Assembly (NCBI GenBank): GCA_002898255.1
Contig: BEIE01000006.1
Location: 1 to 49,250, forward strand
DNA from: a bacterium HR28
GTDB taxonomy: Bacteria; Chloroflexota; Chloroflexia; Thermomicrobiales; Thermomicrobiaceae
Direction of reading: 5' to 3'
DNA length: 49,250 bases
Shown: piece by piece, positions 44,237 through 48,928 of the stretch
Layout of the letters: each line of letters starts with the position of its first letter
Position numbering within the stretch: position 1 is the first letter of the stretch
Program-made: the position numbers and the translations under genes
Notes under the pieces: model-generated
What the model was told of the DNA's origin: nothing
The model's input: only the letters and a program-made list of their open reading frames with translations
Databases searched by the model: none

Positions 44237-44554
44237 GGTGCTGGTGATTCTCGCGGTTTACGCAGGCATGATGGAAAGGGGGATGAACGCGGAGCGCTCG
44301 ACGCCTGCTGCGATGACGCGATTTGAGCTTGTGAACCGAAATTGTTTCTGCCTTGGCTAGTACGAGTGGGTTCATTTCTCGGGGGTGAGAGACGCCAACA
44401 CTGGGGAAAGTCGGCAGGAAAGCCATTCGTCTCTGCACATGCGGGAGATCAAGGCACATCGCTCCATGACCGAGCCTCCTAGCCGAAGTGCTGCGATTTT
44501 CGCTGAGCAGGGCAGGAATGGACGATGACAGCAGGGAGCCTGGGAGGGGATGAC
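44237..44554. other. Intergenic region between two lipoprotein genes
   Basis: 318 bases. No gene on either strand is supported. No clear promoter or terminator was recognised. Confidence 0.3.
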
Positions 44555-45970
44555 ATGAAACAACCATGGTCATGGGGCATCGCCTTGGGAGGGTTGGCCA
44601 TCGCGTTCATCCTCGGTGCCTGTAGCTGGTTTGGCGGTGGTTCATTCGGAACACCGACCCCAACAGTGCCTATCATTGGGCCGCTCGCAAGCTGCCCGGC
44701 CGGTGCAACCCCACTGTCAATGACCGTTGGGCCGGGGCCGTTACAACCACGGCCGCAGTTGGTCAGCGCCCTGAACAATCCACCGCACTATACCCAGCTT
44801 CCGACCAGTCCAGCGGTGCCGGGCACGCTGGTGCTGCATACGTTCACCAATATTCCGAGCGCTGGCTCGGTGGTCTACTACTGGGTAACCGTTGTTGCTC
44901 GTCCCCTTGCTGCTTGGCAAGCTTCGGATGACGGCATCCGTATTCGCCACCATCTCTATCCCTTTCTCGCGACTGACGGTTGGCAGTTCTCTTCCATTGT
45001 CGGATTTCCCTGGACAGCGAGCAATGTTCCGAACTTCGTGCAAGTGACCATGGGGGGTTACAGCACCATCACAGCGAATGGCTGGAGCCCGGTAGGCCCA
45101 TCCGGTATGCCACTGGTTGATCTGAATACGTATGGTGAACTTGATGTCGAAGTTCATGACAGTACCGAGGTCTTATCGCTGACCCTCGTCGTGTGTGTTC
45201 CTGCACCGACCCCGACACCAACGAAAGTGCCGGTGCCAACTGCTGGTTTGGCTACACCACAGGGCCCGGCGACGGCGATCGATGGTGACGCCGGGGGTAC
45301 TCCTACACCGACGACCGTAATCCCACCCACTGTCGTCCTCCAGTGGACTCCAAAACCGCTACCCACTCCAACACCGACACCAAAGAAGAGTCCTGGTGGA
45401 TCAGCGGTGACAGTGGTTCCGCTGCCAACTCCAACGCCTACTCCGTTGCCAACGGCAACAGCAACGCCGGCTCCGAGCCCAACACCGACCGCGACACCAA
45501 CGACCGTACCGACGCCAACCCCGCTACCAACTGCAACCGCGACACCACTACCAACTCCCACACCGACACCGCAGTCGACGCCCACACCGAGCAGTGTTTG
45601 CGATCTTGTAGTCGATAAGGTGATGCAGCCGACGAACCAGCCTGGTGTCTATACCGTCATCCTCTTCGTCTCCAATCAGGGCAGCGGTCCATGTCCTGCG
45701 GGGGTGCAGGTCACGGACAACGTCATTCAGGGTGCAATGACGTTCAGTGGACCGCTCACCATCACTCCGTCCGGCGGCTGGAGCTGCACCATCTCTGGTT
45801 CAGGAGGAACCTGTACGTCAACGAGTACACTGGCGCCGGGCTCGGTTGTGCAGTTCAGCTTTACGGCAACAGTCACGCAGAAGCCAGCGACCAACTGCGT
45901 GCGGGCGTTTCTCCCCGGCGTGCAAGATCCGACGCCGGGTAACAATCAGCATTGTGTGACCGTGCAGTGA
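44555..45970 (+). CDS. DUF11-domain surface lipoprotein with TPTP linker
   Basis: A 471-residue lipoprotein. The signal peptide ends at LGAC (lipobox), with GGGAGGGGATGAC before the ATG. Residues about 45-230 form a beta-rich domain with Trp- and Tyr-rich strands (VVYYWVTVVARPLAAW). A linker of about 120 residues is built from TPTP, PTAT and PLPT units. The last 120 residues are a DUF11-type immunoglobulin-like repeat (CDLVVDKVMQP ... YTVILFVSNQG ... VQVTDNV ... PGNNQHCVTV) with conserved cysteines likely to form disulfides. It is expected on the outer surface, possibly binding wall or other surface proteins. Confidence 0.82.
   Translation: MKQPWSWGIALGGLAIAFILGACSWFGGGSFGTPTPTVPIIGPLASCPAGATPLSMTVGPGPLQPRPQLVSALNNPPHYTQLPTSPAVPGTLVLHTFTNIPSAGSVVYYWVTVVARPLAAWQASDDGIRIRHHLYPFLATDGWQFSSIVGFPWTASNVPNFVQVTMGGYSTITANGWSPVGPSGMPLVDLNTYGELDVEVHDSTEVLSLTLVVCVPAPTPTPTKVPVPTAGLATPQGPATAIDGDAGGTPTPTTVIPPTVVLQWTPKPLPTPTPTPKKSPGGSAVTVVPLPTPTPTPLPTATATPAPSPTPTATPTTVPTPTPLPTATATPLPTPTPTPQSTPTPSSVCDLVVDKVMQPTNQPGVYTVILFVSNQGSGPCPAGVQVTDNVIQGAMTFSGPLTITPSGGWSCTISGSGGTCTSTSTLAPGSVVQFSFTATVTQKPATNCVRAFLPGVQDPTPGNNQHCVTVQ
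45360..45597 (+). repeat. Degenerate tandem repeat encoding the TPTP/PTAT linker
   Basis: About 240 bases of imperfect 6- to 12-base units (variants of ccaactccaacg and accgacaccaac) coding Thr-Pro and Ala-Thr-Pro motifs. Such tracts expand and contract easily. The opposite strand reads as a long Gly-Val repeat, which is a shadow and not a gene. Confidence 0.75.
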
Positions 45971-46120: not shown

Positions 46121-47302
46121 ATGGATCGAGTGAAGAGCAGTATTCGGATGAGTACGACAGCGCGTCTCACGACTGTCGTGGTGCTTGCCCTCCTGCTGGC
46201 GGCGTGCCAAGGGAGACTGGTCGCCCGCGGGACACTGCCCGCAGCGACCGAACGGGTGTCGACGCCGGTTGGCACGGCGGAATTCCAGAGCCCAGCGCAA
46301 CCTTCAAGTCGTCCAACACAACTCCCTAGTCCGACGGCTGTGCCGACGTCCACACCGGAGCTCACTCTCATGGTGCCGACGGTGACGCCGGCCATCACTC
46401 CGATCGCGACTGCCGAACAGCCACCGACTCCGACCCCATCCCCTGGAATCCCACCGCGAGGACAGCCCTCTCCCACGGCGACACCAACTGAGCCGCCAAC
46501 TCCGACAGCGACGCCCGCAGGGTACTGTGACCTTGCCTTGGAAAAGACGTTGTTCCAACAAGTTGGCACGACGAGTGTCGCGGTGACGCTCACGGTGCAG
46601 AATCGGGGGACGGTGAGCTGTTCTCCTGGCGCAGTCGTCAGCGATCCTTTGCCTGCTGGCATGCGGCAGCTGACCGAAGTACAGGTGGCGGAAGCGGGTG
46701 GGCAGGGCCGGTGGCAATGCGTGAGTACAACGTGCACCGCCGGGGAGAGTCTAGCACCTGGTTATGCGGCTAATCTCGTTTTCACGGCAGCGGTCGAACC
46801 GGGCGTGACGCTTGAGAATTGTGCCCGCGTTACTGTCAACGGAGATGCTGACCCCGCGAACGATGCGCGGTGCGTGTCATTGAGTGCTCTGCTGCCGACT
46901 CCTACAGCCACGCCAACGCCAGTCACGTGTCTCCTTGGGTTCGAGAAGGCGATTCAGCTTGGTGAGGAATTGAGCATCACGCCAGGATGGAGGGCGACAC
47001 TCCGCATCCGAGTGCAGAATGCCGGCCCCGAAGGCTGTGTGTCGCGCTGGTCGGCCGTGGTGGTGAGTGACCTCTTGCCAGCGGGGATGCGATTGCAGGC
47101 ACCGCCGGTGGCGAACGATCCGCGGTGGGAGTGTGGATGGAGCTCAGATGCGCTGCAGTGCGAAGGTCCACCCCCAGAAGTCGGTAGGGTGGTGACAATT
47201 CAAGCCGAGCTCGCTGTGGTGCGGGAAGCAGCGACTGCGCAGAACTGTGCCACGCTTGAACCGGCTGGCGCGACAGCCTGTGCTGTGCCGTCAGCACAGT
47301 GA
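46121..47302 (+). CDS. Lipoprotein with two DUF11-like domains
   Basis: A 393-residue lipoprotein with lipobox LLAAC, then a Pro/Thr linker (to about residue 135). Two DUF11-type repeats follow: YCDLALEKTLFQQ ... VTLTVQNRG ... VVSDPLPAGM ... GDADPANDARC, and CLLGFEKAIQLGE ... RIRVQNAGPEGC ... VVVSDLLPAGM. They are separated by a short TPTATPTP spacer, and each has a set of cysteines. It starts at 46121 or at an in-frame ATG at 46148; neither has a strong ribosome site. It is third in the lipoprotein row and clearly related to its neighbour by duplication and repeat gain. Confidence 0.82.
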   Translation: MDRVKSSIRMSTTARLTTVVVLALLLAACQGRLVARGTLPAATERVSTPVGTAEFQSPAQPSSRPTQLPSPTAVPTSTPELTLMVPTVTPAITPIATAEQPPTPTPSPGIPPRGQPSPTATPTEPPTPTATPAGYCDLALEKTLFQQVGTTSVAVTLTVQNRGTVSCSPGAVVSDPLPAGMRQLTEVQVAEAGGQGRWQCVSTTCTAGESLAPGYAANLVFTAAVEPGVTLENCARVTVNGDADPANDARCVSLSALLPTPTATPTPVTCLLGFEKAIQLGEELSITPGWRATLRIRVQNAGPEGCVSRWSAVVVSDLLPAGMRLQAPPVANDPRWECGWSSDALQCEGPPPEVGRVVTIQAELAVVREAATAQNCATLEPAGATACAVPSAQ

Positions 47303-47349
47303 AGCAGGCGGTGCTCCATCCGAGGGAGGATCCCCTTCCCGGTGAAGGG

Positions 47350-47355
47350 TATAAT
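47350..47355 (+). promoter_or_regulatory. Consensus -10 element for the selW-like gene
   Basis: A perfect TATAAT 37 bases before the GTG start at 47387, giving a short leader of about 25 bases. The -35 region is not consensus. Confidence 0.45.
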
Positions 47356-47386
47356 GGCTCACTTGGAGACTTCGAAGGGGGGTACA

Positions 47387-47635
47387 GTGGGACATCAGGT
47401 TCGCATCGAGTACTGCACGAGTTGAGGGTATCGTGGACGTGCCACCCGTGCGGTGGAACTCCTGCTGGATCGATACGAACTCCAGCTCGCCGAGATTACG
47501 CTGGTCCCCTCGTCGGGCGGCCGGTTTGAGATCTGGGTGGATGGCGAGTTGGTCTTTTCCAAACTGGCGGAGAAGCGCTTCCCGGAAGACGCTGAACTCC
47601 TCGACCTCGTCGGAGCGCGGCTCGGCACCGAGTGA
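47387..47635 (+). CDS. SelW/Rdx-family selenoprotein (in-frame TGA read as selenocysteine)
   Basis: Read through one TGA, this frame gives an 82-residue SelW-like protein: VRIEYCTSU at the start, with Cys10 and Sec13 (TGA 47423-47425) in the CxxU redox motif, then GYRGRA, LVPSSGGRFEIWVDGELVFSK and KRFPE, all hallmark SelW/SelT/Rdx features. The start is GTG 47387 with GAAGGGGGG upstream. A hairpin just after the TGA fits a bacterial SECIS. The thioredoxin-fold product would be a small cytoplasmic thiol/selenol redox protein. A caller that treats TGA as stop would report only a headless fragment from about 47453. ThiI follows 69 bases later. Sec decoding genes are not in the window. Confidence 0.85.
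47442..47456 (+). promoter_or_regulatory. bSECIS-like hairpin for selenocysteine insertion
   Basis: CCACC and GGTGG form a 5-base-pair stem around the loop CGTGC. The loop begins 21 bases after the TGA and has G as its second base. As I recall the bacterial SECIS model, it needs a short stem, a 3-14 base loop with a G in the first two positions, and 16-37 bases from UGA to the loop; this hairpin fits. Confidence 0.6.
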
Positions 47636-47704
47636 GTTCCAACGGCTCGGGGCGGCCGCACGGCGCTGGGAAGAGAGGCGCGGCGGGGGCGCGGGAGGTG
47701 AGCG

Positions 47705-48928
47705 ATGAGCCGACAGATGACGTCGCTCGTCATCGCGCGTGTGCATGAATTGGCGCTTAAGGGGCAGAACCGTCCCTTCTTTAAGCGTGCACTGTACGAG
47801 AATCTTCGCTATGCGCTGCGCGATCTTCCCGTCTCGCGCCTCCAAGAGCGCGCACTGCGCTACATCATTCGACTTGAGGACTCCTCGGTTTGGCCGGAGG
47901 TTGCAGAACGGCTACGCTGGGTCTTTGGTGTGGCTAACTTCTCGCTTGGCCTCGAGACGGCGCTGACCGTTGAGGCAATGCAGCAAGGGTTGGCCGAGCT
48001 CTTGGAGCGTCAGGGGCCACTGCAGGGAAGCTTCCGCATCCGGGTCAAGCGAACAAACAAGGCATTCCCCCTCACCTCGCCAGAGTTGGAGCGGGAACTC
48101 GGGCGCTTTGTCCAGAAGCGGACGGGTGCCCCGGTCGACCTCTCGCACCCCGACGTCACCTACCAGGTCGAAGTGCTCTACGACCGAGCACTGGTGAGCG
48201 GCGAATCGTTGCCGGGGCCCGGCGGGCTTCCGGTCGGGGTGAGTGGGCGCGTAGTTGCGCTCCTCTCTGGTGGTTACGACTCGCCAGTCGCTGCCTACCG
48301 GCTGATGAAGCGCGGGTGCTTTGTGACCTTCGTCCACTTCCATGCCTATCCGTATGTACGACCGATCTCGATTGAGAAGGCCGTCGAGCTCGCGCGACAC
48401 CTCTCGCGCTATCAGCCACCCCACAACCGCCTGGTGATCGTGCCGATCGGCGACGCGCAGCGAGAGATCGCGTTGGCTGCTGAGGCGCCGTTGCGAGTCG
48501 TCCTTTACCGGCGACTTATGCTGCGCATCGCGACGGAGATTGCCCGAGAGGAAGGCGCGGGGGCGATCGTGACTGGCGAGAGTCTAGGCCAGGTCGCCTC
48601 GCAGACGTTGGAGAACATGCGGGCGATTGGTGCCGTCACCGATCTTCCGTTACTTCGACCTCTTGTTGGAAACAATAAAGACGAGATCATCGCCGAGGCA
48701 GTGCGGATCGGCACCGAGCCTATCTCGCGTATCCCGGACGACGACTGCTGCACGGTCTTCGTCCCGCTCCATCCGGCGACCCGTGTGACGGTCGAGCAGG
48801 CGGAAGCGGCTGAACGTGCCTACGACGTCGCCGCACTCGTCGAGCAGTGCCTGGCACGGCGGACCGTCTACGAAGGCGATCCGTTCCGCTGGGACCCGTT
48901 GGCGGCGCTGGCAGCGGCTACGGCCTGA
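47705..48928 (+). CDS. thiI: tRNA 4-thiouridine sulfurtransferase ThiI
   Basis: A 407-residue enzyme that adenylates uridine 8 of tRNA and transfers sulfur to make 4-thiouridine; it can also feed thiazole synthesis. Residues about 5-165 are the ferredoxin-like plus THUMP RNA-binding region (ELALKGQNRPFFKRALYENL; RIRVKRTNKAFPLTS). The PP-loop ATP motif LLSGGYDSPVAAYR is near residue 188, followed by TGESLGQVASQTLENM and PDDDCCTVFVP, which carries the conserved Cys pair. No rhodanese domain is present, so sulfur must come from another carrier. GGGAGGTGAGCG precedes the ATG. Confidence 0.94.
   Translation: MSRQMTSLVIARVHELALKGQNRPFFKRALYENLRYALRDLPVSRLQERALRYIIRLEDSSVWPEVAERLRWVFGVANFSLGLETALTVEAMQQGLAELLERQGPLQGSFRIRVKRTNKAFPLTSPELERELGRFVQKRTGAPVDLSHPDVTYQVEVLYDRALVSGESLPGPGGLPVGVSGRVVALLSGGYDSPVAAYRLMKRGCFVTFVHFHAYPYVRPISIEKAVELARHLSRYQPPHNRLVIVPIGDAQREIALAAEAPLRVVLYRRLMLRIATEIAREEGAGAIVTGESLGQVASQTLENMRAIGAVTDLPLLRPLVGNNKDEIIAEAVRIGTEPISRIPDDDCCTVFVPLHPATRVTVEQAEAAERAYDVAALVEQCLARRTVYEGDPFRWDPLAALAAATA

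Follow-up and report, generated by a model that had tools for sequence, protein, structure and literature searches.

Does the TGA at positions 47423-47425 of the window (the whole 49,250-nucleotide stretch that was analysed) terminate a gene or does it lie within one? The first-pass annotation had proposed that a SelW-like frame continues on both sides of this codon, that the codon occupies the second redox position of a CxxU motif, and that the host decodes UGA as selenocysteine (Sec). We examined the frame, its homologues, the RNA downstream of the TGA and the Sec genes of the host genome.

The SelW-like frame and its TGA codon

The features of the frame are as follows.

47377-47382, forward strand: GGGGGG, Shine-Dalgarno-like, 4 nt 5' of the GTG start; a purine-rich stretch is also present in relatives
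47387-47635, forward strand: selW-like selenoprotein gene (Rdx family), predicted to encode 82 aa with one Sec, with a GTG start and a terminal stop that is also TGA
47423-47425, forward strand: in-frame TGA, predicted from the TGA/Cys codon pattern in homologues to be read as Sec (U13 of CTSU)

The coding part extended from the GTG at 47387 to 47632 and was followed by the stop TGA at 47633-47635. Read-through of the first TGA gave the product VGHQVRIEYCTSUGYRGRATRAVELLLDRYELQLAEITLVPSSGGRFEIWVDGELVFSKLAEKRFPEDAELLDLVGARLGTE, in which the CxxU motif was found near the N-terminus (C10-T-S-U13) with the TGA exactly at the second redox position, as had been proposed. The SelW-like character of the frame on both sides of the TGA was likewise borne out by matches to Pfam Rdx (PF10262; 88.3 bits vs a gathering cut-off of 22.6, E 3.9e-25, residues 4-75 of 83), to NCBIfam TIGR02174 (CXXU_selWTH; 71.4 bits vs a cut-off of 34.2) and to solved SelW-like structures (3dex, E 6.8e-12). 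The score for the SelTWH_Campy equivalog NF041051 was 81.4 bits, below its cut-off of 88, and the protein was not filed in that subgroup. Since the first in-frame start 3' of the TGA is the GTG at 47453, a table-11 gene finder would yield 60 residues without the CxxU motif. An Rfam scan of the whole window returned zero matches at gathering thresholds, and no tRNA was found within the window.

Homologues were collected by a class search of 158 genomes, which gave a match in 81 (88 rows). We read 91 loci: the class search supplied 87 of them, and the rest were three named duplicates (L054-L056) and a locus from an actinobacterial metagenome-assembled genome (MAG; L057). By tblastn on these loci, 90 of 91 rows were scorable at the codon (TGA in 69, TGC in 20 and TGT in one); L112 was left unscored, as a contig end cuts the row, and L105 was without a match. 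De-duplication removed the three duplicates and left 87 scored genes, 86 from the class and one from the actinobacterial MAG. At the second redox position, 66 of these carried TGA and 21 carried TGC or TGT, with nothing else observed; the expectation that a Cys codon should replace the TGA was borne out in every non-TGA gene. That 66 of the 87 scored homologues share this TGA across independent genomes, and that the others have a Cys codon, rules out a sequencing error. When the Sec/Cys label was placed on a tree of the 87 rows, three changes were needed compared to a shuffled mean of 19.0, on a tree whose deep support was weak.

A UAG reported inside the match of genome G034 was rejected as a recoded codon, as the motif there is CAAC and the TAG is the normal end of the gene. 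In another genome (G149, locus L068, minus strand), two SelW-like genes were found in tandem, with Sec codons at about 1680 and 1977, and both had TGA at the CxxU position together with the hairpin described below.

Substitutions among six members of the genus provided a test of the frame. Pairwise substitutions at codon positions 1, 2 and 3 of the SelW frame numbered 162, 132 and 530, with variable sites at 22, 17 and 66 of 82 each. Were the TGA a true stop, the locus would hold either a degraded selW or a protein of 60 aa that starts at GTG 47453 and lacks the CxxU motif, a reading in keeping with a frame that is broken under table 11. We consider it very unlikely, because the sequence is conserved on both sides of the TGA, the third-position excess holds over all 82 codons with TGA present in all six members, and the 87 scored genes have a TGA or Cys codon only.

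The substitution pattern also bears on whether the real gene is a different open frame, either the 91-aa ORF at 47433-47708 on the forward strand or one of the antisense ORFs at 47291-47845 and 47395-47733. All three are open under table 11, and the first overlaps the start of the downstream thiI gene by four bases; the pattern fits the SelW frame, however, and translations from the five other genus members show ORF 47433-47708 interrupted by two mid-frame stops (L026), without its GTG start (L027 and L028) or ended early near its 3' end (L025, L028 and L029). We put the probability of such an alternative gene close to nil, and selW is retained as the gene at this locus.

A hairpin downstream of the TGA

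The first-pass annotation had also described a CCACC/GGTGG hairpin with a G-bearing loop that starts 16 bases after the TGA, and its position and sequence were found to be as described.

47442-47456, forward strand: bSECIS apical hairpin CCACC-CGTGC-GGTGG, with pairing in 66 of 66 TGA genes and covariation

The stem arms were CCACC (47442-47446) and GGTGG (47452-47456), and the loop, CGTGC, started 21 nt after the UGA. The five pairs, at +19 to +23 and +29 to +33 from the T of the TGA, formed in all 66 TGA genes in identical register, compared to 12.7 genes expected to have 5/5 pairs under synonymous codon draws for the same amino acids. Stem variants across the TGA genes included CCACC/GGTGG, CCGCC/GGCGG, CCGTC/GACGG, CCATC/GATGG and CTGTC/GGCAG; before de-duplication, all 69 TGA rows had G as loop base 2, and loop base 3 was T or G. 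Cys-type SelW/Rdx proteins such as SAV_2001 (3dex) and Atu0228 (2fa8) share the fold family and the motif position with the selW product. By contrast, they carry CxxC where selW has CxxU, and the full 5-bp stem was kept in none of the 21 Cys genes of the class, with only one to three pairs formed. The synonymous-draw expectation for the full stem in the Cys genes was also 0, and the loss of the hairpin from these genes is therefore due in part to their different amino acids.

Covariation was examined in an alignment of the TGA genes (A1; 66 rows, 61 distinct), in which 305 of 305 cells were paired, three of the five pairs changed on both sides, and 26 cells had changed on both sides compared to a shuffled mean of 6.0 (0 of 500 shuffles as high), counts which are neither independent nor probabilities since the rows are related. 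The covariation score of the hairpin was 0.314 vs 0.175 when shuffled (0 of 500 as high). When the stem was slid by one to three columns, pairing fell to 22-59%, and RNAalifold selected the same stem unprompted. Two of the five covariation measures stayed within the shuffles: neither the number of pairs with a double change (3 vs a shuffled 2.1; 74 of 500 as high) nor that of further pair types (4 vs a shuffled 5.1; as high in 500 of 500 shuffles) showed an excess. Compensatory stem changes, used here as a test of bSECIS membership, were found. The single-sequence folding energy was ordinary compared to shuffles (z = 0.00 for 51 nt and z = -1.22 for the 21-nt hairpin); support for the hairpin comes from comparative evidence and not from this energy. 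The residues encoded over the stem varied jointly among the genes (A-T..A-V, A-A..L-A, A-V..L-T or L-A, and A-I..V-M), and by this pattern the RNA hairpin seems to limit the choice of residues just downstream of the predicted Sec.

The hairpin resembles the bSECIS of E. coli formate dehydrogenase in its position just after the UGA, its 5-bp upper stem, its 5-nt loop with G then U and its UGA-to-loop distance of 21 nt. The E. coli fdhF element has a bulged-U feature; unlike fdhF, no bulged U was seen in the selW hairpin. The bSECIS rules in the portion of PMC13188914 available to us call for a loop of 3-9 nt, an upper stem of 4-16 bp and 16-37 nt between UGA and loop, and the selW hairpin falls within each range (5 nt, 5 bp and 21 nt). 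The same portion asks for a G as loop base 1 or 2, with G or U usually next to it on the 3' side, as is found in CGTGC, and for a minimum free energy of -7.5 kcal/mol or lower, with which the -15.3 kcal/mol (51 nt) and -7.6 kcal/mol (21-nt hairpin) of selW agree, though these values are no better than shuffles. It further describes loop bases N1 and N2 as pairing in most elements; unlike most bSECIS loops so described, the selW loop has no N1-N2 pair (C and C in CGTGC), which given that 'most' is no defining failure, and relatives with an AGTTT loop could form an A-U pair there.

Selenocysteine genes in the host and its relatives

The host genome (3.12 Mb in eight contigs, 99.6% complete, with the window on contig 6) is a Thermomicrobium. 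The closest named relatives with a SelW gene were Thermomicrobium sp. CFH 73360 (91% identity) and two Thermomicrobium MAGs (85% and 80%). The genes for tRNA-Sec, SelA, SelB and SelD were all present in the genome that carries selW; a lack of selB and tRNA-Sec would have refuted the Sec reading. The tRNA-Sec gene (C4:3053-3145) scored 73.1 bits with the Rfam model, for which the cut-off is 47, and was typed by ARAGORN as SeC with anticodon tca (UCA). The selB gene on contig 3 scored 365.3 bits together with its neighbours in the frame (cut-off 242), selA (C5:3876-5228) scored 548.6 bits, and selD (C1:1068420-1069352) scored 359.5 bits.

The host selD itself contained one in-frame TGA (in ...SCAGUAGK...), and the fold of this region prefers pairings other than a SECIS. 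Two FdhA-like stretches (L116, C2:344601; L117, C1:441682), both of which score under the TIGR01591 cut-off, had one in-frame TGA each (...ENQARIUHSSTVPG...) and a hairpin with a GGTCT loop after the UGA. The sequence thus indicates that the host has at least four predicted selenoprotein genes, namely selW, selD and the two fdhA-like genes. When the host genome was scanned with a covariance model of the SelW SECIS, the selW gene (53.1 bits) and one weak site were all that was recovered. The latter (C1:1306297-1306356; 20.2 bits, E 0.04) was rejected, as it lies in no gene: the flanking stops leave 10 residues before the site and 7 after it.

A different amino acid might be inserted at the UGA, either Trp by reassignment or Cys or Trp by near-cognate read-through, and the identity of the inserted residue cannot be read from the frame alone. 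We regard this as highly improbable, as all 21 non-TGA genes have Cys and never Trp at the aligned position, TGA also terminates the same selW gene, the genome has complete Sec machinery and other genes with an in-frame TGA, and the covarying hairpin would be left without a role. Taken together, the frame, its homology, the conservation of UGA at the exact residue, the covarying hairpin and the complete Sec gene set make it almost certain that selW is a bona fide selenoprotein gene with a bSECIS, in which UGA 47423 is decoded as Sec in a SelW/Rdx-type oxidoreductase. The proposal that the host decodes UGA as Sec is supported on the same grounds, and from them we infer SelB binding, the actual insertion of selenium and the redox function of SelW.

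By the mechanism we propose, selW would encode a small thioredoxin-fold SelW/Rdx-type oxidoreductase in which the CxxU motif acts as redox centre. As the mRNA is translated, SelB loaded with Sec-tRNA(UCA) would be bound through its C-terminal part by the hairpin that starts 16 nt after the UGA, and selenocysteine would be inserted at UGA 47423. The second UGA (47633), presumably without a recoding role, would terminate the protein.

This kind of gene is already familiar, and selW is a further SelW-family selenoprotein. In the parts of these papers available to us, PMC1794560 reports 10 SelW-like selenoproteins in bacteria and counts three selenoproteins in Chloroflexi, PMC1088965 reports 48 SelW-like selenoproteins in the Sargasso Sea, and PMC13188914 lists SelW-like selenoproteins (PF10262, CxxU). 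The predicted protein is like these bacterial SelW-like selenoproteins (PF10262/TIGR02174) in fold family, length, CxxU motif and in-frame UGA with a downstream bSECIS. It differs in its host lineage (Thermomicrobium and related genomes), which is not named for SelW in those parts of the papers, and, within the genus Thermomicrobium, in its own loop CGUGC and its position adjacent to thiI. No report of SelW or selenoproteins in Thermomicrobium or Sphaerobacter was found in the open-access PMC literature as far as its text was available, and such genes may well be in print or in database annotation. The selW gene provides a clean, checkable example of a gene cut short by table-11 gene finders, and its relatives provide a large aligned bSECIS set of 66 genes.

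Sec genes were also surveyed across the genomes with SelW-like genes. Of the 64 genomes that carry a Sec-type gene, 60 had selB (G153 only as a partial hit), compared to 7 of the 15 whose SelW-like genes are all Cys forms. A first scan, which scored 25 candidates per genome, detected a clear tRNA-Sec (best E below 1e-9) in 44 of the 64 and in 6 of the 15. The 20 Sec-type genomes with no clear tRNA-Sec were mostly drafts, and three of the 64, assemblies 72-77% complete, lacked both selB and tRNA-Sec. When the Rfam search was repeated under laxer settings on these 20 and on five genomes with Cys forms only (25 in all; 111 candidates), it revealed no clear tRNA-Sec in the 20, the best score being 48.6 bits. 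When the host tRNA-Sec was used in blastn against the 20 and two positive controls, both controls and two of the 20 matched, the latter in part (G123, 72 nt at 100%; G127, at a contig end). By these two matches, assembly gaps may explain some of the absences. Seven genomes listed as 93-100% complete (G050, G138, G095, G102, G060, G092 and G126) had selB and a Sec-type SelW, and no clear tRNA-Sec was found in them by the Rfam model or blastn. These may reflect draft gaps or an unusual tRNA-Sec; our guess is that tRNA genes lost from draft bins are the simplest account. In G120, a partial tRNA-Sec copy (62 nt, 100% identical; contig C33, 208215-208276) was found about 9 kb from the full gene (217410-217503) on the same strand, an arrangement that resembles an attachment-site duplication flanking an inserted element.

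The selW-thiI neighbourhood

Two further features flank selW.

47350-47355, forward strand: TATAAT, possible -10 box, 37 nt 5' of the start codon
47705-48928, forward strand: thiI (tRNA 4-thiouridine / thiamine sulfur-transfer enzyme), 407 aa, 69 nt downstream of selW, probable operon partner

The ThiI protein matched the Pfam families ThiI (218.8 bits), ThiI_fer and THUMP, with the matches ending at residue 372 of 407, and no Pfam rhodanese match was found. In every one of the 18 host-family loci (L024-L041), selW was followed on its own strand by thiI. Spacing, for some loci measured to the first matched residue, was 58-69 nt in six loci of the same genus and within 170 nt in 12 of the 18; in six loci of two other genera it was 724-872 nt, with other sequence between. 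Among all 91 loci, 21 had thiI, including the three named duplicates, and it was absent from the fetched flanks (mostly 1.5 kb) of the other 70. A consensus promoter and terminator scan found no full promoter and no terminator, and in 11 of the 18 family loci a TATA[AC]T box lay 35-48 nt 5' of codon 1. The same-strand conservation of thiI, together with this box, suggests that selW and thiI form an operon.

No paper linking ThiI with SelW was found in the open-access PMC literature. A functional link is put forward here as a hypothesis to which we give a low probability: in the host family, Sec-type SelW might work with the adjacent ThiI as a selenol redox partner, regenerating or delivering (per)sulfide or selenide chemistry to the rhodanese-less enzyme. 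If true, such a partnership would tie the orphan SelW family to a defined partner in the modification of tRNA with sulfur (or selenium). The conserved selW-thiI pair could help assign a function to bacterial SelW. On the other side of selW, two DUF11-domain proteins adjoin the gene upstream (window positions 44525-45970 and 46121-47302).
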